Shown here in pieces: positions 1,094 to 23,333 of a DNA stretch of 40,186 nucleotides. The stretch comes from Campylobacteraceae bacterium. Lineage in GTDB: Bacteria; Campylobacterota; Campylobacteria; Campylobacterales; Sulfurospirillaceae. The position numbers and the translations under genes were made by a program. How positions within the stretch are numbered: the first letter of the stretch is position 1; each line of letters begins with the position of its first letter. The stretch is taken from positions 1-40,186 of the forward strand of contig JALUBH010000005.1 in assembly GCA_027050775.1 (NCBI GenBank). Direction: 5' to 3'. Below the pieces are notes generated by a model. The model made no database searches. It was not told the DNA's origin and worked only from the letters and a program-made list of their open reading frames with translations.

Positions 1094-1516
1094 ATGAGCA
1101 ATCGCAGCGAACTATCCGTCATGAGTAATAAAACAGGAGAATTTGTATATAATCTTGAAATGAAAAAAATAGAGAGATTGTATATGGGACCTAGAAAATA
1201 TTGGAGAACAACCATGATGTATGACGAAGCATTATTACTGGTACCATCACAAACAGGAGTTAAACTTTTATTGCATTTGAAAAATGAGTGCAATACCTCT
1301 GATTATACTATTGTCTTAAAAATCAAAGAACTGGCTAAAACTTTTGAGTGTAACGATAGAGCATTAAGAAATAATCTAAATAAACTACTAGAAAAAAAAT
1401 ATCTCAAAAAAATCACCAATGAATATTATATGATAAATCCTAATATGTTTTGGATCAAGAATATGAGTGATAGAGAATGGCAAGAGTTAAAAATCAAATT
1501 TGAAAATATGGATTAA
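1094..1516 (+). CDS. RepL-like winged-helix replication/regulatory protein (140 aa)
   Basis: The C-terminal half looks like a winged-helix domain: a helix rich in Lys/Glu (KIKELAKTFECNDRALRNNL), a recognition-type helix (NLNKLLEKKYLKKI), then a strand ending in YYMINPNMFWIK. The phrase 'YMINPN' at the end of the wing matches the closing signature of the RepL replication-protein family of small plasmids as I know it. A RepL-type initiator would bind an origin and start replication of the element or its circular form. It ends by overlapping the convergent restriction gene by four bases. A winged-helix transcription regulator is the main alternative. The start ATG at 1094 has GAGG at 1081-1084 upstream; a second ATG eight codons later is possible. 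Confidence 0.55.
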   Translation: MSNRSELSVMSNKTGEFVYNLEMKKIERLYMGPRKYWRTTMMYDEALLLVPSQTGVKLLLHLKNECNTSDYTIVLKIKELAKTFECNDRALRNNLNKLLEKKYLKKITNEYYMINPNMFWIKNMSDREWQELKIKFENMD

Positions 1517-2733
1517 TCTATTTCAAGTGTTCTTTTAAAATATTTTATCCATGATCTGACAGTAGATAATCTCCTATTTATAGTGCTCTCACTAAAAACA
1601 TTATATGTTTGGAAGTATATGTCGCTAATAGGCCTTTTATGTAGCGCAGCATTTAAAATAGGATCTGAAAAAACAATTTTAGCTAAAGCTTCAATTCTTT
1701 GTCGAAAAGATAAATTTATAATATTTTGACCTTTTGATGTTAAAACCAAACATCCATTTTCTTCCGAACAAACCTTTAACCATTTTAAAACATTAAAATA
1801 GTAATCAATTTGTCTATCAACAATGTCAAAACTAGAGCTAAGTTCTTCTTTGCTAAGACATGTACTTCTAGAAATTAAAATTAACATTGTGTTAATTGTT
1901 TCAAATCTATCTGCCTGTGGAAACGGAACAGAAGTATTAATATTATCAGGATTAACTTTTATGGAATATATCGAAAAATTAGTTGTTGGCTCAGCAAACC
2001 TAAAAGCTTTTTCTTCTGAATGTTTAGTGTACCCAATAGCTCCGTCATAATAATATGGGATAAACCTAAATATATCACCATGAAGATAGAATACATAACT
2101 CTTGATAAGTTTTCTTCCTGCTAATTTATGCTCCCAAAATAATTGAGGATATAAAAGTTGTCTAATATTTATATTGTTTGTATATCCTATTTTTGCCTCT
2201 ATTAAGTGAATAGCATGATTAGCTTCATAGCCCCCGTCCACTTCTATTTGTACGCCCTTAACATTATATGATATTTTGCCAATGCAAAAGTCTAAATCAC
2301 CTCTTAATCGACCTCTTATTGTCAACTCACTTTTCTCACCAAATACAATCCTATGCATGCCGGATATAGCCGCTATATCTAAAGCTGCACTTTCTGATTT
2401 TATATTAAATGGATCTATACTTATAATATTTTGTGGTATTTTTAGTTCAATAATTTTTGTATCTATCTCTTCTTGTACATCAATAAAAGGATCATTGGGT
2501 GCAATTCTATATAAGCCATTTTTTATAGCAAGAATTGACAATCCTTCTTCCTTCATAATATTTGGTAATTTTTCTCTAAAATCAATTTTTGTTAAATTTC
2601 TCGGTTCTTTGCCCTCAACAGCTTTAAGATCTTCAGCTGTAATATCTACAAATCCATTTTTTCTTATATCACTAAGTAAGTTATATTTATCAAAAATATT
2701 TTTCCATGATTTGTGAAAATTTAATTTAGCCAA
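1513..2733 (-). CDS. Probable type II restriction endonuclease (406 aa)
   Basis: This gene starts 14 bases after the stop of a Dam-class methylase on the same strand, the usual order in a type II restriction-modification pair. I place the start at a TTG codon (2731-2733) because AGGAG lies 7 bases upstream; a longer frame running back into the methylase has no ribosome site. Around residues 160-182 the sequence reads VQIEVDGGYE...HLIEAKIG, which fits a PD-(D/E)XK nuclease core (Asp166, Glu179, Lys181). The C-terminal 130 residues look helical and may be a DNA-binding domain. If the methylase modifies GATC, this enzyme should cut that site; this is inferred from context, because I do not recognise the subfamily. 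Confidence 0.75.
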   Translation of the reverse strand: MAKLNFHKSWKNIFDKYNLLSDIRKNGFVDITAEDLKAVEGKEPRNLTKIDFREKLPNIMKEEGLSILAIKNGLYRIAPNDPFIDVQEEIDTKIIELKIPQNIISIDPFNIKSESAALDIAAISGMHRIVFGEKSELTIRGRLRGDLDFCIGKISYNVKGVQIEVDGGYEANHAIHLIEAKIGYTNNINIRQLLYPQLFWEHKLAGRKLIKSYVFYLHGDIFRFIPYYYDGAIGYTKHSEEKAFRFAEPTTNFSIYSIKVNPDNINTSVPFPQADRFETINTMLILISRSTCLSKEELSSSFDIVDRQIDYYFNVLKWLKVCSEENGCLVLTSKGQNIINLSFRQRIEALAKIVFSDPILNAALHKRPISDIYFQTYNVFSESTINRRLSTVRSWIKYFKRTLEID

Positions 2734-2747
2734 TATTATTCTCCTAG

Positions 2748-3560
2748 CTAATAATTTTTTACTAAAACTTCTTTTATTTTTCCTCTGCCAGTTGATTTGC
2801 AATTTAAAGCTCTATTTGCTTCAACGATTACTATTCCATAATCTTTATATAAATCCAATATAAAATCCGTATAAGAATTTGATAATAAAAAATATGCTCC
2901 TATACTATCAATATAATCACATAATTCTTTTAGTCTAAATTGCATATCATCATCAAAGCCTTTATCTGTATATGCCGTAAAGTTTGAAGTTGCGTTCAAT
3001 GGAACATAAGGAGGATCAAAGTAAATAAAATCACCTTCTTTAATATATTCTCTGATTTGTTCAAAATCTCCAGTAGTAATGGTTGTTGATTGTAATAATT
3101 TACTACATTTTAAGATATTCTCTTCCTCAAAAATTGTAGGATTTATGTATCTTCCGTAAGGAACATTGTTTTGTCCTTTTCTGTTTACTCTATAAAGCCC
3201 ATTGTAGCCAGTCTTATTTAGGAATATAAATCTACTTGCTTTTTTAACCTTTGATTTTCTCTTATATTTTGTAGGTTCTCTATCTAATGCTCTTAATTTA
3301 TAATAATATTCTTCATTATTTATATGTTTTTTTAAATCTCTAATTAATTCTTTAGGCCTTGTTTTTATAATTTCATATAAATTTGTCAACTCCGGATTAT
3401 AATCATTAATAAAACTATTTTCTTGTTTTAGTTCAAAAAATACAGCACCACCACCAATAAAAGGCTCAAAATACCTATTGAATTTTTTTGGCATATTATT
3501 TTTTATATCATTTATCAGTTGTCTTTTGCCACCAACCCACTTTACAACTGGTTTACACAT
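2748..3560 (-). CDS. Dam/DpnII-class adenine-N6 DNA methyltransferase (270 aa)
   Basis: It transfers a methyl group from S-adenosylmethionine to adenine in DNA. Class signatures are clear: KWVGGK at residues 7-12, the SAM-binding PFIGGGA at 33-39, the conserved NKTGYNGLYRVNRKG block around 115-129 and the catalytic DPPY at 182-185. Length and order match the alpha class (Dam, M.DpnII), whose usual target is GATC. A ribosome site (AAAGGAGAT) precedes the ATG. With the gene at 1513-2733 it forms a restriction-modification module, transcribed leftwards from the region containing the repeat at 3575-3619. Such modules stabilise mobile elements and exclude foreign DNA. The GATC specificity is inferred from the family. 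Confidence 0.9.
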   Translation of the reverse strand: MCKPVVKWVGGKRQLINDIKNNMPKKFNRYFEPFIGGGAVFFELKQENSFINDYNPELTNLYEIIKTRPKELIRDLKKHINNEEYYYKLRALDREPTKYKRKSKVKKASRFIFLNKTGYNGLYRVNRKGQNNVPYGRYINPTIFEEENILKCSKLLQSTTITTGDFEQIREYIKEGDFIYFDPPYVPLNATSNFTAYTDKGFDDDMQFRLKELCDYIDSIGAYFLLSNSYTDFILDLYKDYGIVIVEANRALNCKSTGRGKIKEVLVKNY

Positions 3561-4956: not shown

Positions 4957-5733
4957 TTATCGTTTTTGCTTTGGCTTAGTTGGTTTCAGGAGATAAGCGA
5001 GAAATAAAACATTGAGAATAATATAAACAAATATTCCTATGGGTTGTGCAAAATCAAGAACCACCGTAAGAAGCAAGAAATCTATAAACCAAACAATAGT
5101 TGCTCCAGCAAAAATAGCAGCCTTAACTTTTTTATCAATATCTTTCTTGCCCCATTTATCCATATATCGAAGATAGATAAACATTGCAGGGGCAATAATT
5201 GGTAATTCTACCATTAAGACAGGAGAAAAGAACACCATGGCAATCATAACAGATATTCCACTTACCGCTGCAACACTAGCAAAATTAGGTTGCATTGTAA
5301 GATCAACTTGATTGTTTTCCTTTTCTCTATTCTTTTTTTTCTCTTCCCAGCTAGGATTATATTTTAGAAAAAAGTGTGTTTCGACAAACAAATCGAGCAA
5401 AAATGTTGAAATTGGGAAATAATAATTTAGCTTAGTATTTTGCTGCCATATATAATCTGTTATTGCCTCAATTTTTTCCAACTCTTCCTCTGAATAGTTT
5501 TCAGGGTGCAGAGCAATGTCCTTAAGCTTTTCATCTGTTATTGAGGCTACCTCTGCCTCCCAAGCATCTTTCTTTTTTTGAAATATTTTATTCTTTTTTG
5601 CCTCTCTTGCCGCATAGATAGCATCATTGGCACTTAATTTTTTCTCTTTCACTTTCTCCTCTTTTTTAAGAGGAGACTCTTCATCATATAACTCTTTTCT
5701 GAACTTCTGCATTCTTAAAAATTGATCTTTCAC
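4957..5733 (-). CDS. Membrane protein with charged N-terminus and YFPIS motif (258 aa)
   Basis: Residues 1-95 are highly charged, with Lys/Glu-rich helices that could form a coiled coil. From about residue 104 the sequence reads YYFPISTFLLDLFVE, followed by three or four hydrophobic segments in the second half (about 150-175, 177-190, 207-228 and 231-250). The C-terminus is basic (KPTKPKQKR). The YFPIS.xxLxD stretch recurs in the membrane protein at 19424-19861, which also belongs to the element, so the two probably share a domain or partner. No known family is recognised. It is read divergently from the transfer cluster, with the candidate oriT between them. Confidence 0.65.
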   Translation of the reverse strand: MKDQFLRMQKFRKELYDEESPLKKEEKVKEKKLSANDAIYAAREAKKNKIFQKKKDAWEAEVASITDEKLKDIALHPENYSEEELEKIEAITDYIWQQNTKLNYYFPISTFLLDLFVETHFFLKYNPSWEEKKKNREKENNQVDLTMQPNFASVAAVSGISVMIAMVFFSPVLMVELPIIAPAMFIYLRYMDKWGKKDIDKKVKAAIFAGATIVWFIDFLLLTVVLDFAQPIGIFVYIILNVLFLAYLLKPTKPKQKR

Positions 5734-5877: not shown

Positions 5878-5930
5878 TGACAACTATGGTGATAACCATA
5901 GTTGTCACAGGAGTATTTATTGTCTAAAAA
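5878..5930 (+). other. Candidate origin of transfer: 13-bp hairpin plus nic-like sequence
   Basis: A perfect inverted repeat with 13-bp arms (5878-5890 and 5895-5907) and a four-base loop (GATA) lies between divergent genes. No T-run follows, so it does not look like a terminator. Eighteen bases further on is TATTGTCT|A (5918-5926). From memory, the nic site of plasmid R388, cut by the MobF relaxase TrwC, reads TATTGTCT/ATAG and also lies just 3' of a hairpin. The relaxase gene at 8591 is TrwC-like. Two points against: the spacing is longer than in R388, and the strand polarity would send the transfer genes first. Confidence 0.4.
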
Positions 5931-5995: not shown

Positions 5996-6034
5996 ATGAA
6001 AGATAAAAATACAAAAGGAGGTGAAGATAAATGA
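5996..6034 (+). CDS. Possible 12-aa leader peptide coupled to the next gene
   Basis: A good ribosome site (AAAGGAG) precedes an ATG at 5996 that opens a 12-codon frame (MKDKNTKGGEDK). Its stop overlaps the ATG of the next gene at 6031 (ATGA overlap), and the peptide's own codons contain that gene's ribosome site (AAAGGAGG). This resembles translational coupling. Whether the peptide is made is unknown. Confidence 0.4.
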   Translation: MKDKNTKGGEDK

Positions 6035-6426
6035 GTGATATAGAGAAAATGAAGGAGATCATTACGGACTTGCAATTTAGCGTTGAAAAGCTTGCGCATG
6101 AAAATGAAAACTTAAAAAATGTAGTGGGACCTTTGATTGAACCTCTTGGAAAAATTTATGATGTTGAAAAAACTATTCAGCACATAAGTAAAGAATTCTA
6201 TAAAAGCTTAAAGAATAATTTGAATTATATGAAAGATGAATATGATGAAGTCAGGGAAAGTATAGAAAATCTAAAAAAAGCTGAGAAGAAAAAGATTCCA
6301 TTTTTTGCAACTTTATTGGTAGTTGCTACTACATCCGCAGTGATAACTACCACATTTTTTCTAGCACTTGATTGGGCAGGCGTTGACTGTGTAAATTTTT
6401 TTATAAATTTATACCATCATTTTTAA
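6031..6426 (+). CDS. Coiled-coil protein with C-terminal membrane anchor (131 aa)
   Basis: Residues 1-90 are strongly helical with heptad-like spacing (IEKMKEIITDLQFSVEKL, YMKDEYDEVRESIENLKKA). A basic patch (KKAEKKKIP) follows, and then one hydrophobic segment at about 94-116 (FFATLLVVATTSAVITTTFFLAL). A cytosolic coiled coil held to the inner membrane is expected. Such proteins accompany mobilization genes on several plasmids and may help dock the relaxosome at the membrane. That role is inferred from position, next to the candidate oriT and upstream of the ParA-like gene. No family name can be given. Confidence 0.65.
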   Translation: MSDIEKMKEIITDLQFSVEKLAHENENLKNVVGPLIEPLGKIYDVEKTIQHISKEFYKSLKNNLNYMKDEYDEVRESIENLKKAEKKKIPFFATLLVVATTSAVITTTFFLALDWAGVDCVNFFINLYHHF

Positions 6427-6448
6427 AAATAAAAATAGGAGTATAGAC

Positions 6449-7195
6449 ATGACAAAGATAATAGAGATAGATGACAATAACAATAGTAATGTTTTTAAGA
6501 ACAGTAGTTTAATTAATGCAGTTAGCGTTAGTTTAAAAGAGGGAGAAGAGGCTTTTGCAGATGCAGTTTTTGAACAAATGGAAAATAACACAAAAATTAT
6601 CCTTGACTTTGGAGGCGGAAATGACTCAAAAAAAGGATTAAAAATAATAGAAAATTTTGATGTAGATTTTACATATGTTATTCCGGTTGGAAATTCTTTG
6701 GCACAGTCTCAAAATGCTATAGACACATATAATCTCATCAAAAATAAAAACAAAGTTATATTTGCTCTAAATCAAATATCAGATCCATCGAACATAAAAA
6801 ATGAATGGTGTTTTTGGTTTGGAAGCAAAGAATTAGGACTCGAAAGTATAGAAGCAAAGCTAAATAATCCAAAGATAATTTATATACCTCGTTCTCCTCT
6901 TTTTGAAATATCCGCATTAGCAGGATTAACAATATGTGAACTTGCTGATTTTGCAAGAAAAATTGAAAATCCTACCCAACTATTTTTCAAACAATCAAAA
7001 GGCGACAAAACCATTTTTAAAAGATTAATGGCAAAACATTCACAAGCAAAAGCAGCAGTAAGATATGTAGATAGCATTTTACCTATTTTAAATGATTCTT
7101 TAGGTCAGCAGAGCAATATAGCCGTTATAAGCACAAAAGGCGGAGTTGGTAAAAGCACAATCGCATGGCATCTATTATCTGCCCTGGAGAGTTAA
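6449..7195 (+). CDS. ParA/MinD-family ATPase in circularly permuted order (248 aa)
   Basis: ParA-type ATPases position plasmids or protein complexes by ATP-dependent binding to the nucleoid. Here the motif order is rotated. The protein begins with what is normally the second strand (KIIEIDDNNNS, residues 3-13, the D-x-D/switch region). The Walker B strand follows (IILDFGGGND, about 50-59), then the rest of the fold. The deviant Walker A motif (NIAVISTKGGVGKST, 223-237) and its helix (IAWHLLSALES) form the last 26 residues. The new ends fall exactly in the loop between the Walker A helix and the next strand, where a normal ParA continues. The start has a clear AGGAG, and the stop leads directly into the next gene. 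All parts look intact, so this reads as a real permuted protein rather than decay. Confidence 0.75.
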   Translation: MTKIIEIDDNNNSNVFKNSSLINAVSVSLKEGEEAFADAVFEQMENNTKIILDFGGGNDSKKGLKIIENFDVDFTYVIPVGNSLAQSQNAIDTYNLIKNKNKVIFALNQISDPSNIKNEWCFWFGSKELGLESIEAKLNNPKIIYIPRSPLFEISALAGLTICELADFARKIENPTQLFFKQSKGDKTIFKRLMAKHSQAKAAVRYVDSILPILNDSLGQQSNIAVISTKGGVGKSTIAWHLLSALES

Positions 7196-7196
7196 A

Positions 7197-7502
7197 ATGA
7201 ATAATAAAAAACTTGAAAAGTGGTTAGCAAAAAATAAGCCAGCAAAAAAGATAAGTAGATTTGATACATATAGAGAGGATATAAATACATTAATCCTTAA
7301 AAACTTCACCCAGGTGCAGATTTGCGAATACCTAAAAGAAGCATACAATATTGAAGTTACAAGATCTAATCTGAGTAAATATTTGAAAAATCACAAAGAA
7401 TATTTACAACCAAAACAAGATAAGCAAGACGACAAAACATCACAAAAAGATAAAAATGAGGAGTATTTGCAGGTACTCAATAATTTTGGAAATGTGAACT
7501 GA
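7197..7502 (+). CDS. Small HTH DNA-binding protein, candidate partner of the ParA-like ATPase (101 aa)
   Basis: The ATG follows the ATPase stop by one base, with GGAG inside the end of the ATPase gene, so the two are co-translated. Residues about 22-62 form a homeodomain-like HTH (INTLILKNFTQVQICEYL, then NIEVTRSNLSKYLKNHK). The tail is Lys/Asp/Gln-rich and probably flexible. In plasmid partition operons the gene after parA encodes the DNA-binding adaptor, and this one ends within the first repeat of the phased GTGA array (7494-7622). I therefore infer that it binds TGTGAA-type sites there and in the dispersed leader motifs. The HTH recalls that of the protein at 19898-20158. Confidence 0.65.
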   Translation: MNNKKLEKWLAKNKPAKKISRFDTYREDINTLILKNFTQVQICEYLKEAYNIEVTRSNLSKYLKNHKEYLQPKQDKQDDKTSQKDKNEEYLQVLNNFGNVN

Positions 7503-7622
7503 TGTGAATGAAAAGTGAACATTTGTGAACAGATGTGAGTGTGTGTGAACAGGTGTGAACGCAAAATAATCAAATGTGAACACTCGTGAATGAAAAGTGA
7601 ATTAGGTGTGAAGAAGATGTGA
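7494..7622 (+). repeat. Helically phased array of twelve GTGA motifs (candidate centromere or origin)
   Basis: GTGA begins at 7494, 7504, 7515, 7525, 7535, 7545, 7555, 7576, 7586, 7597, 7608 and 7619, all on the same strand. Steps are 10 or 11 bp, with one step of 21 bp (two turns). Most units read TGTGAAC, TGTGAAT or AGTGAA. This puts every motif on the same face of the helix, as expected for a cooperatively bound nucleoprotein site such as a plasmid centromere, iteron origin or oriT accessory site. Confidence 0.85.
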
Positions 7623-8590: not shown

Positions 8591-11500
8591 ATGTTAAGCA
8601 TGACAAACATGAGCAGCGAACAAGCAGCTCACTATTATCAAAAAGACCAAAATTACTACACTTCTGAACAAAACAACAATATAGGAGTATGGCAAGGCAA
8701 GGGCGCAAAAGCCCTTGGCCTTACTGGAAGCATAAATGAAAAAGAGTTCTCACGCCTATGCAGAGGTATCCATCCAAAGCAAGATATAAATTTGGTAGAT
8801 ACCACAAAACGAGCAGGAACAGATTTAACCTTCTCAGCTCCAAAAAGCTTGTCTATCTTGGTGGAGATTGGAGACAAACAAGAAGACATAAGTCTAAGAG
8901 AAGCGCATGACAAAGCAGTAAAAGAGACATTAGATTACATAGAAAACTATGCCCAAACAAGAGAACAGATAAATAAAAAAAGAGTTATATTAAACACAAA
9001 TAATCTAGTTATTGGAAAATTTCAACACGATGTAAGCAGAGAACTCGACCCAGACTTGCACACCCACTGCTTTTTGCTAAATGCAACGCAAAAACAAGAC
9101 GGTAAATGGAGGGCTTTACACAATACTCAAATGTATAAAAACAAAATGCTTTTTGGCCAAATTTACAGAAATCATTTAGCAAAAAATGTAAAAGAGCTAG
9201 GCTACGAAATAGAAGTAACAAATGCAAAGCAAGGGCTTTGGGAGGTCAAAGGAGTTGATGAGAAACTCATAAAAGAGTTTAGCAAAAGAAGCAAGCAAAT
9301 AGAACTACACTTGCAAGCTTTAAGACTAAAATATCCAAACGCAAACGAAGCAAAATTAAAAGAGATGGCAGCCCTGGAAAGCAGAAAAGCAAAAAATACA
9401 AATATTGACAGAAAAAAAATAAGAGAAAAAAACAGACAAAGAGCAAAAGAGATTCTTTTAAAAAACGAAGAAACTCTAAACAATATAAAACAATCAAACA
9501 CAATAGAAAACACTTATCTAAGCAGAGCTGAAATAGTAAAGATAGCAAGAGAAATAATAACCGAAAGAGAGTCTCTCTTTTCAAAAGAGCAGCTAATCCA
9601 GGAGAGCCTAAAACTAAGTGTAGGCTACTATGATTTAAAAGAGATCGAAAAGACTATATTAGAAGACGAAGAGCTTGTAAATCTTGAATCCAACATATAC
9701 ACTACCAAAGAGATGATAAAAACAGAAAAAGAGATAGTTGAATATGTAAGAGCCACGAAAAACACTATGAGTCCACTATCAAAAAAAGAAAAAGCCGGGG
9801 AGCTTATAGACGAAAAATTCAGTTATCTAACACCAGGACAAAAAGAAGCATTTAATCATATTTGCACCACAACAGATAAACTTATAGCAATCCAGGGTGA
9901 TGCTGGAAGCGGAAAAACCACAATGCTAAAAGCCCTAAAAGAGTTTACCAAAGAAGACAATCTTATAGGACTGGCCTTCACCGGCAAAGCCGCGGAACAG
10001 CTAGAGGAGGAAAGTGGCATCAAAAGCAACACCCTTCACTCTTTTTTACATCAAAAGAAACATAAAAACAATCAAACCTACATAATTGACGAAGCAACGA
10101 TGGTCGGCTCAAAACAGCTCCACCAGCTCCAAAAGATAGCCAATAAAACAAACTCCAAGATAGTTTTACTAGGAGACACCAAACAGTTCCAAACCATCCA
10201 GGCAGGAAATATCTTTCTAGAGCTGCAAAAAAGGAATCTAATCTCAACCACATATATGAGCGAAAATTTAAGGGCAAAGAGTGAAGTATTAAAAGAGTTA
10301 TATGAAGATATAAAAAATAAAAACATCGAAAAAGCCTTCAATACTCTAAAAAGTGAAAAAATGATTAAAGAGGAGTTGAATCTAGAGAAAATAAAAGAGC
10401 AATACCTCAAGGATCAAGAACACACTTTGATAATAGCAAGCAAAAACAAAGATAGAAAAGCTTTAAACGAAGCTATTAGAACCAGCAGAAAAGATGAGAT
10501 AAAAAACGAGAGAGCATTTACTATACGGGAAAATACCGCCATGGACGAGACGGAGAGACACTATGCACACAATTATGATGTCAATCAGATAGTTTTTATT
10601 AACTCTGCAATCGAGGGGTTTCAAGCAGGCAAAGAGGCGGTAATAAAAAGTGTTAATGTCAAAAATAATACGATTACAGTCTCTAACGGCAGAAAAGATG
10701 TGGAGATAAATATAGCAAAAGACGGCGGAAAGATAGCCAGCTTTAATGTCACCAAAAAAACATTTGGCATCAATGACAAAATAGTCTTTACAAAGAATGA
10801 TAGAAAATTAAACATAAAAAACGGTCAAACAACTACTATAAAAGAGATAAGAGACGGAAAAATTTACTTTGAAAAGAATGGAAAAATAGAGAATATAAGC
10901 GCAAATGAGTATAGTTATATAGACCATGGATACGCTATTACTGATTATAAAGCCCAAGGCCAGACTTCAAACAAAGTGATAGTCCTAGCCGATTCAAAAA
11001 TGGCAAATATGAACTCCTTTTATGTCCAAATCACAAGAGCAAAAAATGATGTTAAAGTTTATACCGACTCTATAGAAGATTTATTGGAAAATGCAAGGAC
11101 TACACAGGTAAAAACTTCTACTCTTGATTACTACTTCAAAGAGACAGAAGATCAAAGTCAGGAAGATGAAACTCAAACAAAAGAGCAATCACAAGAATCT
11201 CAAAATATGCAACAACCAATCAACCAAACCAATAATCAAACTGAAAATATAAAACAGCCTATGAATAATAAACAAGAAGACACAAAAGAGTCTATTGTAA
11301 AAAAACCTACACAAACAAAACCTAAAAAGATTAAAAGAGAGAGAATAAGTGAATCCGAATACACCCAGCTTAAAAACAGAACAAATGAAGAACTAAAACT
11401 TGCGGATCCGTCTCCTGTTTTAGCAGCGCTTAGTGTGGAGTACAAACAGCAGGGAAATAAATACATCTTTAAAGCAAGAGCAGAGGAGAGGACAGCAAGT

Positions 11501-12745
11501 GCAAATCTATACCTGGATAAAAACGGAGAGTGGAAATACAAAGATTTTGGGAGTGGACAGGGGGGAAGTATTGTAAATGTTGTTATAGATATAACTGCTA
11601 TGAACTACAAAGACTCTTTGCAGTTTTGTTTAAGTAATACAAATTCAAGAGATTATCTGCAAGAAAGAATCGATGAGATAACAGACAGTGCAAACAGGCA
11701 AAAAGTTGATAATCAAGAACTGATAGAAAAGGTAAAAGAGCAAAGAGCAAAGAATCAGGCAAAAGCAAAAGAGAGCACCATAAATTCAAAAGTTATAAGC
11801 GTAACACACCTGTCTCAAAGAGCTATTAACTTTTTAAAAGACAGAGGCATAGAAAAAGTACCGCCTCATTTTTACGAAATCACTGGAAGCTATATAAAAG
11901 ATGGAGAGGAAAAACAAAGACACGGGATTGGAATCCTAACAGGAGATCAAAGCAAAATCGATTTGAATAATCTTGAGAACTTAGGAGCTGATATCCACTT
12001 TTTTAAAAAGTTAGGCAACTTCAAGACACAAAGCTTTGGAGCAAAAGACATCACATTTATATCTGCAAATACAGATAAAGTAGCAATATTTGAAAGCAAG
12101 ATGGATTATGCTGCTGCTTATTCTACACTTGATCTTGAAAATATAAATATATTAATCGCAAATGGTACCGGCAACTTTCACAAAATTGTGAATAGCATAA
12201 AGGAGAGAGATTTTAAAGATATCTACTTCTTTAACCAAAACGACAACCCAGGCAAAGAGTTTGTATTAAACATTGCAAAAGAGGTAGGCATAGATAAGTT
12301 TGCGGTGATTAAGTACAAAGTGGATGAAGAGAAAATGGATATAAACGACCTGGTAAAAAACAGAGTTGCTTTAAAAAGCAGGGTGGCAAAAATCAAACTA
12401 GATGAGTTTGAAAAAACAATTAAAAAAGGAGAAACACATGACAACAATAGAGGAAAAAAATCTGTTCGATTATTGGGATGCGATATCAAAGAATACGAAG
12501 CTGAGTGTAGAGGCATTGAGGGAGATATTGGATCTTTTAAAACCGCAAGAAACTCAGGAGGTAAGCGATGGAGAGAAGAGTTTAAAAGAGATATTATCAA
12601 GCATAGAAAGGAGATTAGCGAACTTGGAAGAGAAGTTAATCAAGTAAAAGAGTTTGAAAATACACTTTTGAGGGATTTAAGAGCTGCAAATCAAAGTAAC
12701 TCAAAATCTCAAAATAAAGAGCAAAGAATAAGAAGGAGAAGATAG
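8591..12745 (+). CDS. MobF (TrwC/TraI-type) conjugative relaxase-helicase with C-terminal primase/Toprim region (1384 aa)
   Basis: It nicks oriT, stays bound to the 5' end and unwinds the strand for transfer. The N-terminus is TrwC-like: MLS start, tyrosine pairs at 15-16 and 22-23 (HYYQKDQNYYTSE), VWQGKGAKALGL, DLTFSAPKSLSI, and the metal-binding histidines H146 and H157/H159 (DLHTH). A RecD-like helicase follows, with Walker A GDAGSGKT at about 436-443. After a Gln/Asn-rich linker (about 855-930) there is a region resembling DnaG-type primase domains: YKDFGSGQGGSIVNVV near 985, and a Toprim-like segment (IFESKMDYAAAY, FFNQNDNPGKE) near 1160-1230. The last 35 residues (EFENTLLRDLRAAN plus a basic end) recur in the ArdC-like protein. 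A third, primase-like domain is uncommon for this class. Confidence 0.9.
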   Translation: MLSMTNMSSEQAAHYYQKDQNYYTSEQNNNIGVWQGKGAKALGLTGSINEKEFSRLCRGIHPKQDINLVDTTKRAGTDLTFSAPKSLSILVEIGDKQEDISLREAHDKAVKETLDYIENYAQTREQINKKRVILNTNNLVIGKFQHDVSRELDPDLHTHCFLLNATQKQDGKWRALHNTQMYKNKMLFGQIYRNHLAKNVKELGYEIEVTNAKQGLWEVKGVDEKLIKEFSKRSKQIELHLQALRLKYPNANEAKLKEMAALESRKAKNTNIDRKKIREKNRQRAKEILLKNEETLNNIKQSNTIENTYLSRAEIVKIAREIITERESLFSKEQLIQESLKLSVGYYDLKEIEKTILEDEELVNLESNIYTTKEMIKTEKEIVEYVRATKNTMSPLSKKEKAGELIDEKFSYLTPGQKEAFNHICTTTDKLIAIQGDAGSGKTTMLKALKEFTKEDNLIGLAFTGKAAEQLEEESGIKSNTLHSFLHQKKHKNNQTYIIDEATMVGSKQLHQLQKIANKTNSKIVLLGDTKQFQTIQAGNIFLELQKRNLISTTYMSENLRAKSEVLKELYEDIKNKNIEKAFNTLKSEKMIKEELNLEKIKEQYLKDQEHTLIIASKNKDRKALNEAIRTSRKDEIKNERAFTIRENTAMDETERHYAHNYDVNQIVFINSAIEGFQAGKEAVIKSVNVKNNTITVSNGRKDVEINIAKDGGKIASFNVTKKTFGINDKIVFTKNDRKLNIKNGQTTTIKEIRDGKIYFEKNGKIENISANEYSYIDHGYAITDYKAQGQTSNKVIVLADSKMANMNSFYVQITRAKNDVKVYTDSIEDLLENARTTQVKTSTLDYYFKETEDQSQEDETQTKEQSQESQNMQQPINQTNNQTENIKQPMNNKQEDTKESIVKKPTQTKPKKIKRERISESEYTQLKNRTNEELKLADPSPVLAALSVEYKQQGNKYIFKARAEERTASANLYLDKNGEWKYKDFGSGQGGSIVNVVIDITAMNYKDSLQFCLSNTNSRDYLQERIDEITDSANRQKVDNQELIEKVKEQRAKNQAKAKESTINSKVISVTHLSQRAINFLKDRGIEKVPPHFYEITGSYIKDGEEKQRHGIGILTGDQSKIDLNNLENLGADIHFFKKLGNFKTQSFGAKDITFISANTDKVAIFESKMDYAAAYSTLDLENINILIANGTGNFHKIVNSIKERDFKDIYFFNQNDNPGKEFVLNIAKEVGIDKFAVIKYKVDEEKMDINDLVKNRVALKSRVAKIKLDEFEKTIKKGETHDNNRGKKSVRLLGCDIKEYEAECRGIEGDIGSFKTARNSGGKRWREEFKRDIIKHRKEISELGREVNQVKEFENTLLRDLRAANQSNSKSQNKEQRIRRRR
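12438..12647 (+). CDS. Possible small protein overlapping the relaxase gene in another frame (69 aa)
   Basis: An ATG at 12438 with an excellent ribosome site (AAAAAAGGAG) opens a 69-codon frame inside the relaxase gene. The product (MTTIEEKNLFDYWDAISK..., VEALREILDLLKP, SSIERRLANLEEKLIK) looks like a normal acidic, helical, coiled-coil protein. The relaxase frame over the same bases is unusual, rich in Gly, Arg and Cys, and resumes a conserved tail directly where this frame stops. Both frames therefore seem constrained, and this may be a real overlapping gene. Alternatively the relaxase frame here is simply a recent read-through linker. Confidence 0.45.
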   Translation: MTTIEEKNLFDYWDAISKNTKLSVEALREILDLLKPQETQEVSDGEKSLKEILSSIERRLANLEEKLIK

Positions 12746-12789: not shown

Positions 12790-12963
12790 ATGTCAAGAAC
12801 AGATGCAATTATAAAGATGAAAGGAGCGGATAAAGATACTGCTCCCATAAAGATTGGAGAAGAGCTTATATTCTCCTGGGATATAGATTTGAATCTAAAA
12901 GAGTTTAGTGATGAACAAATCGAAGAGTTCTATGATAAAGAGGCTGATGATGAGAAACACTAA
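12790..12963 (+). CDS. Small acidic protein (57 aa)
   Basis: I start this at the ATG at 12790 (MSRTDAIIKMKGADKD), which has GAGGAG about seven bases upstream; a longer frame from a GTG at 12745 touches the relaxase stop but has no better site. The protein is acidic, especially its end (EFSDEQIEEFYDKEADDE). No family is recognised. It overlaps the start of the ArdC-like gene, so the two are translationally linked. Small acidic proteins sometimes mimic DNA as antirestriction factors, but nothing specific supports that here. Confidence 0.5.
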   Translation: MSRTDAIIKMKGADKDTAPIKIGEELIFSWDIDLNLKEFSDEQIEEFYDKEADDEKH

Positions 12964-14023
12964 GCAAAACAAGGCAGATGAGCTGATAGAAAAGGTAAAT
13001 GAGAGGTTTGAAACACTTGTAAAAAATTTAGATTCCAAACAGAGCGAAGAGGAGATAAAAAACTATTTTAAATTTATGGGCAAGTTTCACAATTACTCTC
13101 TGAGAAACCAAATGCTGATAGCACTTGAGGCACAAAGCAGAGGAGCAACTGTAGAGCATGTGGCATCTTTTAAAACCTGGAGCATGTTAAAAAACAGTGA
13201 AGGCAAAAAAGCAAGTGTAAAAAAAGGAGAAAAAGGATTCTCTATTCTAGTACCGGTAACTTACATCAAATATGAGTTAGACAAAGATCGAAAATACATA
13301 CTTGATGAAAGCGGTAAAAAGATTCCAAAACGAGATGAACACGGCAACATAGAAAAAGGCTTAAAATTTAAGGCTGGAACCGTGTTTGATGTGAACCAGA
13401 CAACTGCAAAAGAGATAGAAGCATATAAAACACTTGATTACAGAACCAAAATACAAGTAAATGAATCATTGTTTGAAAAGCTGCAAAAAGGTGTAAGCGA
13501 AAAGTTTAATCTAAATGTATCGGTAGAACCGACAGGCAGTAGGGCAAAAGGATATTACAATTTTAAGGAAAATAAAATAGTAATCGATCCTGCATATTCT
13601 ACAAGTGAAAAGATATCAACACTTTTTCATGAGCTTGGGCATCATCAAATACATGGCAAACAGCTTAAAGAAGGTGCTCTCAATTATGATAACCTTCATA
13701 AAGATAGGGGCGCAAGGGAGGGAGAAGCAGAATCATTCAGTTATATTCTCTCAGGCATGGCAGGTATTGAAAACAAGAGTGAGCTATATATCAAGACCTG
13801 GGGCAACAGTGCAAAAGATTTACAAGAGAGGTTTCAACTCATCACAGGTGCTGCACAAGAGGCAATAAAAACACTTGATTTGGAAAATATAATCTCTAAC
13901 GAACAGCAAAACAGTATTGAAAAAGAGAATACACGAGAATTTGAAAGCACACTCTTAAAAGATTTAAGAGCTGCAAATAATGCGCAAAAGCAAGATAAAC
14001 AAATAGAGATATCGAGGAGTTAG
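12947..14023 (+). CDS. ArdC-like antirestriction protein: ssDNA-binding domain plus zinc metallopeptidase (358 aa)
   Basis: ArdC-type proteins are sent with, or made on, incoming conjugative DNA and protect it. The N-terminal part (about 20-150) shows the ArdC ssDNA-binding pattern (FHNYSLRNQMLIALEAQSRG, ASFKTWSMLKN, VKKGEKGFSILVPV, and FKAGTVFDVNQT). The second domain carries HELGHH (about residues 227-232), a HExxH zinc site, and GEAESFSYIL downstream, with the likely third-ligand/acidic residue. The tail EFESTLLKDLRAANNA resembles the relaxase tail. The ATG at 12947 is chosen because AAAGAGG precedes it; it lies inside the end of the preceding gene. The operon position between relaxase and coupling protein fits a transferred protein. 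Confidence 0.85.
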   Translation: MMRNTKQNKADELIEKVNERFETLVKNLDSKQSEEEIKNYFKFMGKFHNYSLRNQMLIALEAQSRGATVEHVASFKTWSMLKNSEGKKASVKKGEKGFSILVPVTYIKYELDKDRKYILDESGKKIPKRDEHGNIEKGLKFKAGTVFDVNQTTAKEIEAYKTLDYRTKIQVNESLFEKLQKGVSEKFNLNVSVEPTGSRAKGYYNFKENKIVIDPAYSTSEKISTLFHELGHHQIHGKQLKEGALNYDNLHKDRGAREGEAESFSYILSGMAGIENKSELYIKTWGNSAKDLQERFQLITGAAQEAIKTLDLENIISNEQQNSIEKENTREFESTLLKDLRAANNAQKQDKQIEISRS

Positions 14024-14025
14024 AA

Positions 14026-14211
14026 GTGGGACTTTTAATAAAACTACTTAAAACTCTTTTTGGTAAAAAAGCAGACTTTAAAGAGAAAGAAAATAGCGAA
14101 ATTGTGAATATAGGTATAGATGGAGAAAACGAAGATGAAGAGCTGGAGTTTAAGGGCTTGGAAGTTGGACTTGAAAATTCTCATCTAAATACACTTACAA
14201 GGAGAAGATAA
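14026..14211 (+). CDS. Small acidic hypothetical protein (61 aa)
   Basis: It starts at a GTG two bases after the ArdC-like stop, with GAGGAG upstream. The first 17 residues are hydrophobic and basic (GLLIKLLKTLFGKKADF), like an amphipathic membrane-binding helix. The rest is acidic (GENEDEELEFKGLEVG). A copy of the TTGTGAATANAGNTA motif (14102-14116) lies inside the gene and encodes IVNIGI. Its stop overlaps the start of the coupling-protein gene (TAATG). Function unknown. Confidence 0.5.
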   Translation: MGLLIKLLKTLFGKKADFKEKENSEIVNIGIDGENEDEELEFKGLEVGLENSHLNTLTRRR

Positions 14212-15743
14212 TGAAACTAGATTTTAATGTTTTATTTGTCTTAGGACTGGCAAATTATGGGGCAGGCTATGGACTGCATGAAAGTTACAATATAAATATA
14301 GCAGCGGTTGTGCTGGTGCTGTTTGTTGTTGAATACTACATTTACAGGTACTTTTTTAGGCAATACAGAAATGTGAACGATCGAATGTACTACTTTGGAG
14401 CGTGGGAGATGGGTAGTTATCCTAACTTTTATTCCCAAACCGAGGGAAACAGGTGGACAAAGGCAAGTGTCGTAAAAAGAGGGATGAAAAACGGTGATCT
14501 GTTTTTGGATAAATTTAGATTTGATTGGAGCGTAAAGAAGTATTTTAAACTATTCTCTTTTAAGAAAAGATTGGAAAACTTTAGATGCAATACAAACTCA
14601 AAAGATATGATAAAAAGTGCGGTGGTGATTGGAGCTATGGGAAGTGGTAAAACAGAATTTTATAACTCAATTTTAGCTCAAAACAAATTTAAAAGATACC
14701 TTATAAACGATACAAAAGGAGATTTTACACAAAAATTCTACAATGAGAGAAGAGATATTATACTCAATCCCTATGACGAGAGAGGCAGTGCCTGGAATCC
14801 ATTCGAGGAGGATAGCGATTTTATCGTAGAAATATTCATTGAAAATCTTTTTAATGCGATCGCCGGAGACAAGAAGGACTTTTTTAGTGGTAGCATGAAA
14901 GATAGATATATGGCTCTTTTTAACGAGATACACTATAAAAAAAGCTCTTTAAGTGCTGCGCAAAAACTTGATCTATTTGTAACTGAATTAAAAAAATACT
15001 TTAAAGAGGCAAGAGCAAGTGGAAGGACAAGCGAAGCTGATGTGGCCAGCACCATGAAACTTACTTTTGAATTTTTTGAATATTTGAATTTTTGTATCCA
15101 AAATGGTGTTAAAACTTTTACTATCAAAAAGTTCCTGGAAAGTGAGAATACAAAGCTTTTTATGCTTGTGAGAGAAGATCAGAAAAGTAAACTTATGCCT
15201 TTTTTTACAGGCTTTTTAGCTACATTTGTAGCAGTGCTTCTATCTCGACAAGATGATAAGGAGAATCTAACAGGTATAATCTTAGACGAGTACTTAAGCT
15301 TTGCGAAGAACCTTGATGTAAATACTCTTAATAATTTGCACACGCAAATAAGGAGTAAAGGGGGATGCCTGATATCGGGAACTCAATTTTTGCCCGAAAA
15401 AGATAATAAAGAGATAGCTCAAAATATCTTAAATAGTGCAAGATATTGGTTTATATTTGAAACGATTGATAATTTTACTCTTAAAAAAATAAATGAAACT
15501 ATAGGAAGAGTAAGATACCAAAAGGAGAGTAAAGACAGAAAATCAAAAACATACAGAGTGGAGGAAAACGATTTAATTAACACATCCATAATGCAAAGTC
15601 TTGGTAAAAAGTTTGAGCATATAACTTTTGTAGCTACTAAAAAGATACTTTATAAAGGTTACACTCCTGTAGTAAATTTGGAAAAAAGGAATGAAAACTT
15701 TGTGAAGAGTGAAAATATCAAGAAATTTTACCAAAGTAAATAA
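14211..15743 (+). CDS. VirD4/TraD-type coupling protein (510 aa)
   Basis: T4SS coupling proteins are membrane-bound hexameric ATPases that dock the relaxosome to the secretion channel. The N-terminus has two hydrophobic stretches (about 8-22 and 30-48). Walker A is GAMGSGKT at 141-148, followed by RYLINDTKGDFTQKFY and LNPYDERGSAWNPFEE, a combination characteristic of the TraD/TrwB branch. Walker B is IILDEYLSFA at about 355-364, with the QIRSKGGCLISGTQ motif after it. It is smaller than F TraD and lacks a long C-terminal extension. Partners are the relaxase and ArdC-like protein encoded upstream, whose tails may be its substrates. Confidence 0.9.
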   Translation: MKLDFNVLFVLGLANYGAGYGLHESYNINIAAVVLVLFVVEYYIYRYFFRQYRNVNDRMYYFGAWEMGSYPNFYSQTEGNRWTKASVVKRGMKNGDLFLDKFRFDWSVKKYFKLFSFKKRLENFRCNTNSKDMIKSAVVIGAMGSGKTEFYNSILAQNKFKRYLINDTKGDFTQKFYNERRDIILNPYDERGSAWNPFEEDSDFIVEIFIENLFNAIAGDKKDFFSGSMKDRYMALFNEIHYKKSSLSAAQKLDLFVTELKKYFKEARASGRTSEADVASTMKLTFEFFEYLNFCIQNGVKTFTIKKFLESENTKLFMLVREDQKSKLMPFFTGFLATFVAVLLSRQDDKENLTGIILDEYLSFAKNLDVNTLNNLHTQIRSKGGCLISGTQFLPEKDNKEIAQNILNSARYWFIFETIDNFTLKKINETIGRVRYQKESKDRKSKTYRVEENDLINTSIMQSLGKKFEHITFVATKKILYKGYTPVVNLEKRNENFVKSENIKKFYQSK

Positions 15744-21873: not shown

Positions 21874-22524
21874 ATGTATACAACTTCGGAATTGATTATC
21901 AATTCAAAAAAGTTTACAAAAGTTGAAGATTTATATCTTAACTTCGACTTAATTTCAGATTTACTTAAGGAAGATGTGCAAAGAATTTGCTTGGCAAAAA
22001 ATATTTTCTTTTCGGATTTTGACGCATCTTTTGCGACTTCGGTTGCTCAAACTCGGGCAACCCTCACTAAAAAGCACTTAAGAGCAATCAAGAAAAGATT
22101 TTTTGCATGCAAAAATTTAAAAAGTGCAATCAATTTTTTAATATCTCGAATATTAAATAATATGCTAAATGCGAATGATACAAAGCGTAAATTTGCATTT
22201 AAAGCCCCAAAATTCGCAAGTTTGGAAGATTATAACATAAGTAAAAGTTATAACATTGATACAGAAATCGAGTTAGAAAATTTGGAAAATACAGATAAAG
22301 AAATCATCAAACAAGGCTTAAAAAAGGTTTGGGAAGATGGCAAATTTGATGCAGATTTTGACCTTCAGGACTTGAAAGATTTATGTTCTAAATATAATAT
22401 TAACTTATATAATGTGATTGATGAAAAAGAGCTAGAATTGCCGAATTTAGGCACTTATCAGCTTGAAAGCGGGTTGAAACAAGGGTTTTTTGTATTCTAT
22501 TTTGATGAGGAGGCGGCAGCGTGA
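21874..22524 (+). CDS. Hypothetical protein of the replication-like operon (216 aa)
   Basis: I start at the ATG at 21874, preceded by AAAGGA. An in-frame TTG at 21763 would add translated hairpin sequence and is less likely. The protein is helical and charged, with a basic middle (LTKKHLRAIKKRFFACKNLKSAINFLIS) and an acidic end (FYFDEEAAA). No motif for polymerase, helicase or primase is seen. Its stop overlaps the GTG start of the next gene (GTGA). As first gene after a regulated leader, it may be a replication or excision control protein. Confidence 0.55.
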   Translation: MYTTSELIINSKKFTKVEDLYLNFDLISDLLKEDVQRICLAKNIFFSDFDASFATSVAQTRATLTKKHLRAIKKRFFACKNLKSAINFLISRILNNMLNANDTKRKFAFKAPKFASLEDYNISKSYNIDTEIELENLENTDKEIIKQGLKKVWEDGKFDADFDLQDLKDLCSKYNINLYNVIDEKELELPNLGTYQLESGLKQGFFVFYFDEEAAA

Positions 22525-23333
22525 TAAAAAATTATATAACCATTAATCAGGGCAATTTCATCAAAATCGGCGAATTGAGAAATATAAAAGTTGACGCAGT
22601 AGATGGAGTGCTGTTTGATTGGATACATACTTTTACAAATTCAGAAAAAGCACTCAAGAAACTTATAAATAATAAACTATATATCTGGGTAAGTTATAAA
22701 GCTATAAGGGAAGATAATCCGCTTGCGCACATTAACACAAACGATGTCGTGGGGCGAAGATTAAACAAATTGATAAAATTAGGATTGTTAGAAAAGTATT
22801 TTTCTAAAGAAGATGGCAGCAAAACTTTTTTTCATATCACAGAATTTGCATATAAATATTTATTAGAGGGGGTACGACTTGAAAGTAGTACCCTACCTAC
22901 TCAAAAGTCGGAGGGGATACGACTTGAAAGTAGTACCCTACCTACTCAAAAGTCGGACAATAGTAAGTTAATAGATAGTTATAATAGTAAAAAAAATAAA
23001 GAATTTTCTTTTACTTTGCCAAAAAAAATGGAAATAGTGAATTTACCTGAAAAATATATAAATAGGCTAAAAGAATATATAAATAGTGAGAAAAAAACTA
23101 TAACCTTCAAAGATTTTTATGATGCGTGTGCATCAAATGGGTATAAGTATATTAATTTTAAGATTGCCTATGATCGATGGGTTTTAAACCTTAAAAGAAA
23201 AAAATCCAGCCCTAAAAATACTAGAACTTCATGTTTTAAATCGGTACAAGAAAAAAATGAGGAATTTATAAATTCAATTTCAGATAAATATTTTGCTAAA
23301 CAAGAATTTATCGATGCGGAGGTGGTAAGATGA
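22521..23333 (+). CDS. Winged-helix protein, candidate replication initiator with internal repeats (270 aa)
   Basis: It starts at GTG 22521, overlapping the upstream stop, with GAGGAGG nearby. The N-terminal 115 residues resemble a winged helix as found in phage replisome organisers (LYIWVSYKAIREDNPLAH, VVGRRLNKLIKLGLLEKYF, TFFHITEFAYKYL). A 15-residue unit then occurs twice in tandem (GVRLESSTLPTQKSE and GIRLESSTLPTQKSD). A Lys-rich C-terminal region (about 165-270) may be a second domain. Lambda-type initiators carry their origin iterons inside the gene, and the tandem DNA repeat here sits at the comparable place. Specific family not recognised. Confidence 0.6.
   Translation: MIKNYITINQGNFIKIGELRNIKVDAVDGVLFDWIHTFTNSEKALKKLINNKLYIWVSYKAIREDNPLAHINTNDVVGRRLNKLIKLGLLEKYFSKEDGSKTFFHITEFAYKYLLEGVRLESSTLPTQKSEGIRLESSTLPTQKSDNSKLIDSYNSKKNKEFSFTLPKKMEIVNLPEKYINRLKEYINSEKKTITFKDFYDACASNGYKYINFKIAYDRWVLNLKRKKSSPKNTRTSCFKSVQEKNEEFINSISDKYFAKQEFIDAEVVR
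22866..22957 (+). repeat. 45-bp tandem repeat inside the initiator-like gene
   Basis: Two units, 22866-22910 and 22911-22955, differ at one base. Each holds two nested inverted repeats: GTAC...GTAC and CGACTT...AAGTCG. The repeat adds exactly 15 codons per unit. It could be an origin-like binding site, or a recent in-frame duplication. Confidence 0.85.

Follow-up and report, generated by a model that had tools for sequence, protein, structure and literature searches.

The window, by which we mean the whole 40,186-bp stretch of DNA analysed here, carries at 6449-7195 a gene for a circularly permuted ATPase. The 248-residue product is a permuted variant descended from the ParA/MinD family rather than an ordinary member of it, and is classed as such because its Walker A motif is C-terminal. 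Most bacteria rely on ParA/MinD ATPases to place their plasmids, chromosomes, division sites and flagella, and to our knowledge all known ones begin with the Walker A loop. We consider it quite probable that the protein is a working StbB-like ATPase of the ParA/MinD superfamily that underwent a single circular permutation in an ancestor of Campylobacterota conjugative elements, with the caveat that its function is inferred and there is no biochemistry behind it.

Chain order and predicted fold

The open reading frame follows an AGGAG at 6437-6441, with the ATG 7 bases on, and ends in TAA at 7193-7195, the ATG of the next gene (7197) coming one base further. The gene is made up as follows.

6449..7195, + strand: circularly permuted ParA/StbB-like ATPase of 248 aa, identified by motif order, profile matches and predicted fold
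6449..7105, + strand: core block from beta2 (E-I-D-D-N-N) to the old C-terminal helix, matching normal relatives from residue ~35 to their end
6599..6625, + strand: Walker B region ILDFGGGND, residues 51-59
7115..7192, + strand: beta1, deviant Walker A KGGVGKST and alpha1, residues 223-248, corresponding to the N-terminal block of normal relatives

The usual ParA/MinD chain order is not met. The protein runs from KIIEIDDNNNS (residues 3-13) through ILDFGGGND and a long C-terminal helix (187-218) to NIAVISTKGGVGKST (223-237) and a helix at 235-247. The KGGxGK[ST] motif with its signature lysine is present as KGGVGKS at residues 230-236 of 248, and its lysines and glycines are invariant in the alignment of permuted proteins. 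The Walker B aspartate D53 and the acidic strand-2 residues E6-D8 (EIDDNN) are also invariant and are shared with normal relatives. In an alignment with five normally ordered relatives, which are 26-37% identical to the window protein, the permuted protein begins at their residue ~30-36, and their first ~28 residues sit at its own C-terminal end.

The rearrangement is visible with an HMM built from 24 normally ordered relatives. This profile matched the window protein in two pieces, profile positions 35-253 on residues 3-216 (197 bits) and profile positions 2-26 on residues 222-246 (27 bits), and rotation of the protein in silico turned them into a single match (profile 3-252, 237 bits). All six permuted proteins described below likewise gave two out-of-order matches that became one piece after rotation, with a gain of 11-21 bits. 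Pfam, NCBIfam and PHROG models mostly recognised the Walker A end as ParA-like, PHROGs matching a ParA-like family there and nothing else, and the NCBIfam StbB model (NF041292) matched the core (28 bits, E 1.3e-6). Because that score is so low against a curated cut-off of 200 bits, the StbB role rests on context; the normal relatives L028, L030 and L045 likewise fall far under the cut-off (22-33 bits). No GTPase family was among the Pfam matches listed for the protein. A sequence search of the PDB returned only weak matches, to TAL effector repeats, which were dismissed as chance similarity.

AlphaFold2 predicted one compact domain (pLDDT 94.2, pTM 0.89) in which the first strand is beta2 and the last helix alpha1, the cut falls between alpha1 and beta2, and a four-residue loop joins the old ends. 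The input alignment contained the window protein together with a single permuted relative, and normal relatives entered it as two blocks in separate rows; these fragments could have helped the model to fold as a ParA. VIA-align, run on Foldseek candidates, gave ParF, MinD and a NifH-type Fe protein as the best structural relatives of the model, with Z 11.3 for ParF/ParA of TP228 (5u1g; 165 aligned, 2.7 A; model 1-221 on chain 32-205), 9.8 for MinD (1hyq) and 8.7 for MipZ (2xit). In the first five rows the match starts at chain residue 32-41 and stops at model residue 219-221, leaving the Walker A end of those chains unaligned, whereas the normally ordered control L028 aligned with ParF (4dzz, Z 17.3) from the first residue, model 1-253 on chain 1-201. 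In these modelled comparisons, the late chain start against a control that begins at residue 1 is the signature of circular permutation. The fold shared by ParA and MinD is thus met by a predicted, not a solved, structure. Foldseek alone did not place ParA in the top rows for the permuted model, which is expected with a changed order and offers no independent support; the arginases and desulfhydrases that it ranked highest had poor TM-scores and were dropped in favour of VIA-align.

Most of this had been claimed by the original prediction, which described a ParA/MinD-type ATPase with a C-terminal Walker A, a Walker B ahead of it, a cut in the loop between the Walker A helix and the next strand, joined old termini, and clean start and stop signals. 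The profile pieces that merge on rotation, the alignment, and the alignment of ParF and MinD from chain residue ~32 onward only bear out the permutation, and the motif positions, the model and the 248 uninterrupted codons agree with the rest. The proposal that the protein starts at the D-x-D strand holds in part, since strand 2 does come first, but the textbook ParA D-x-D is absent and E-I-D-D-N-N, a family-specific motif, is found there.

Permuted homologues and their conservation

A profile of the permuted sequences was searched through samples of the order, the class, the phylum, two more families and one genus, a sampling that was not exhaustive. The same permuted order was found in G150, G345, G243, G642 and G663, and six distinct permuted proteins are now known (the window protein, L034, L057, L058, L059 and L095), spread over three families of the order (f1, f9, f17) and 40-57% identical to one another over aligned positions. 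Protein L094, from G663, is identical to L034, from the Sulfurimonas sp. NORP9 MAG, and contig C2 of G033, a genome of the same family as the window (f1), encodes the same proteins as the window. Normally ordered relatives, with the KGGVGK[ST] loop N-terminal, occur in the same genus (L002) and beyond, sited at other loci. No match was found in phage records and three weak ones were found in plasmid records; the three loci on viral contigs were all normally ordered.

Permuted proteins form one clade in a tree of 56 proteins with rotated sequences (support 96/99). In a core-only tree, which left out five long-branch or divergent rows, the clade has 92/97, slightly below the mark for firm support. 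The residues invariant in 24 normal relatives (K10 G11 G12 G14 K15 D36 N39 D83 G85-G87 D89 P113 N141) are also invariant across a five-sequence alignment of permuted proteins; L095 lies outside this alignment and by eye carries KGGVGKS, EIDNNN and GGGDD. Among the permuted genes dS is 2.5 to 5.4 times dN where it could be computed, and elsewhere dS is saturated.

These observations bear on whether the gene is a broken remnant, in which two truncated tandem parA copies were fused in frame by chance and have no function. The likely route of origin, discussed below, is itself a tandem duplication with lost outer parts, and a tandem pair of normal genes is known. Even so, we find this reading scarcely credible, given that order, reading frame and family-invariant residues are kept in six loci at the divergence given above, that dN is well under dS wherever dS is computable, and that the predicted fold is complete. 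Six elements that are only distantly related retain the same rearranged gene, so the protein is natural and stable rather than broken. An assembly or sequencing artefact that joined parts of a normal gene out of order might be suspected, since the 48-contig assembly (2.19 Mb) contains the window as one entire contig, but it is already refuted by the other loci: five of them, in other genomes, have the same order with intact neighbours, and one lies in the single-contig 2.2 Mb genome G345, with a tyrosine integrase at its element. The original prediction would have failed had all homologues at the locus been normal and this copy a broken tandem duplicate, or had a second parA been hidden; the five loci have the same motif order, no second parA adjoins the gene, and the normal relatives are elsewhere.

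Gene neighbourhood, origin and inferred role

The ATPase gene lies in a set of genes associated with conjugation.

6031..6426, + strand: coiled-coil protein of 131 aa with a hydrophobic C-terminal stretch (the TM stretch read from sequence); a coiled-coil gene is at this position in 6/6 permuted loci
7197..7502, + strand: small HTH protein of 101 aa in an StbA-like position; a homologue is directly downstream of the ATPase gene in 6/6 permuted loci
7493..7622, + strand: phased repeats GTGAAC/GTGAAT with a spacing of ~10-11 bp, a candidate StbA-like binding array with a presumed oriT adjoining
8591..12745, + strand: TrwC-type relaxase-helicase (TrwC PF08751, E 1.9e-87)
12908-14023: ArdC-like anti-restriction protein, encoded between the relaxase and the coupling protein
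14211..15743, + strand: TrwB/VirD4-type coupling protein (PF10412, E 7.3e-36)

The order coiled-coil, ATPase, HTH (S-B-A) is found in all six permuted loci, where the coiled-coil product always has a hydrophobic stretch, with one additional small ORF between the coiled-coil and ATPase genes in L059. A TrwC-type relaxase is encoded downstream in five, recognised by Pfam in the window, L034, L057 (L115) and L058 (L114) and by sequence in L059; in L095 a partial ORF near the contig edge resembles a relaxase, without confirmation by a family search. L058 has an AntA-type gene between its HTH and relaxase genes, and a similar gene is present in L057. Compared with dinucleotide shuffles, the window repeats had a best lag of 10 (0.6% of 500 shuffles as high) and those of L057, L058 and L095 a lag of 11 (none of 500 as high); L059 did not differ from shuffles (37% as high), and L034 was outside this test, with almost no space between its HTH and relaxase genes. 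The regions were picked by eye once the repeats were already known, and the figures are descriptive. The features expected of an stb-type operon are thus met for the adjacent HTH gene (6/6), the downstream relaxase (5/6) and the phased repeats (4/5 loci tested).

Neighbour order in normal relatives varies (A-B-S, S-A-B, S-B-A). Some of them (L099, L106, L004-L008) have S-B-A, the same as the permuted group, and therefore only gene B need have been rearranged. The permuted gene would result if a normal stbB had been duplicated in tandem and the 5' part had then been lost from the first copy and the 3' part from the second, a course that would leave the flanking gene order unchanged. This origin is plausible but has not been shown; it is reasonable because normal relatives share the gene order and because a tandem pair exists in L113, where two normally ordered stbB-like genes (1489-2292 and 2304-3017, - strand) lie 11 bp apart with 99 of 231 aligned residues identical. 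The pair is a living example of the kind of duplication that could lead up to permutation. None of the relatives collected carries Walker A at both ends, as an intermediate would, which leaves room for a transposition-like move of the 5' segment to the 3' end. We think such a transfer improbable, since the S-B-A flanks shared with normal relatives are simply explained by duplication and loss and tandem pairs do exist; it concerns origin only and is compatible with an StbB-like function.

A different function is conceivable, in which the protein is a true partition ATPase (ParA), the HTH protein its ParB-like partner and the repeats a centromere, so that the task of the system is segregation of the element, excised or replicating, and not control of conjugation. 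ParA profiles match the Walker A end, an HTH partner and iterated repeats adjoin the gene, and the nearest solved folds are ParF and MinD. The gene nevertheless shares its place beside a presumed oriT with a relaxase gene, as in stb operons, the StbB model matches the core, and Pfam recognised no ParB-type partner, giving only weak HTH-type matches for the HTH protein. We regard the partition reading as unlikely, though it retains some weight, and the gene is probably stbB-like, in a conjugation module, with a classical parA unlikely. Its position and its partners suggest, by analogy, that the permuted gene most likely takes the part of StbB. The ParA-type identity given in the original prediction stands, and the stbB-like conjugation context was missed by it.

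As an StbB-like protein, the ATPase may bind ATP as a sandwich dimer, as its relatives do; there are no dimerisation or hydrolysis data, and the inference is drawn because the cut falls in the alpha1-beta2 loop, a loop that lies away from both nucleotide and dimer face in the known structures of ParA. Its presumed partner would be the small HTH protein, sitting by inference on the repeats next to the presumed oriT, and the two might position the element for conjugation and/or segregation, like StbB and StbA of R388. A more speculative possibility, which we doubt, is that permutation altered how the ATPase works: beta1, the P-loop and alpha1 being at the free C-terminus, it would have a nucleotide site that forms only at the end of translation, beside the HTH start codon, and a C-terminal segment that could swap between protomers. 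If true, it would mean coupled synthesis of the ATPase and HTH protein, or a new ParA-type switch.

The element that carries the gene is apparently mobile and linked to conjugation. A circular contig was considered and rejected, as there is no terminal overlap and the right half carries chromosomal-type genes and tRNAs. Other features were noted along the way. In L114 and L115 the gap between the HTH and relaxase genes contains a common stretch, ACACACCCCACGCCCATT(C/T)GG, which follows the phased repeats and is a candidate for the nic/oriT region. At 5878-5907 the window has a perfect inverted repeat, with 13-nt arms (TGACAACTATGGT/ACCATAGTTGTCA) around a 4-nt loop, between a minus-strand gene (4957-5733) and the stb-like operon. 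At 1513-3560 (- strand) a D12-class adenine methyltransferase gene adjoins that for a DUF6996/DUF6997/DUF7226 protein, possibly a restriction-modification pair, and at 22866-22955, within ORF 22521-23333, a 45-nt unit is present in two head-to-tail copies that are 98% identical.

Comparison with known systems

As the original prediction had supposed, no natural permuted ParA, MinD or SIMIBI ATPase was found in the open literature, most subscription journals being outside the scope of this search. A conserved natural member of this kind indicates that the fold tolerates a P-loop moved to the C-terminus, as the ATP-sandwich mechanism probably does too. The permuted ATPase is a ready tool for asking which steps of the cycle need free termini. 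It also singles out a clade of Campylobacterota conjugative elements that have received little study.

In plasmid R388, stability depends on StbA acting at its repeats, StbA in this way also restrains conjugation, and StbB, a ParA-like ATPase, is required for conjugation if StbA is present; the repeats (stbDRs) are 9-bp units with two-base spacing bound by StbA (PMC3098194). As with R388 StbB and RP4 TraL, the permuted loci place a ParA-type ATPase gene beside a gene for a small DNA-binding protein, repeats and a relaxase gene (PMC3098194), and the NCBIfam StbB profile matches the permuted core. They differ in that Walker A is C-terminal, in a score far under the StbB cut-off, in an order of S-B-A rather than the A-B-C of the R388 stb operon, and in that homology of the HTH protein to StbA has not been shown. 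ParF of TP228, MinD and MipZ share the predicted fold and the catalytic motifs, including the signature lysine in KGGVGK, but not the chain order, since in the permuted protein the long C-terminal helix runs directly into beta1 and there is no free old C-terminus.

The permuted GTPases YlqF/YjeQ (YRG) and cpRAS are likewise natural, stable and conserved permuted P-loop NTPases (PMC2430557, PMC1262696), though they have G1-G5 motifs, are cut elsewhere and belong to another branch of the P-loop NTPases, and the likeness is one of analogy only. The normal stbB-like genes on elements from Sulfurimonas, Sulfurospirillaceae and Arcobacteraceae (L002, L028 and L099 among them) belong to the same sequence family and have similar neighbours, but their Walker A is N-terminal and their neighbour order is variable.
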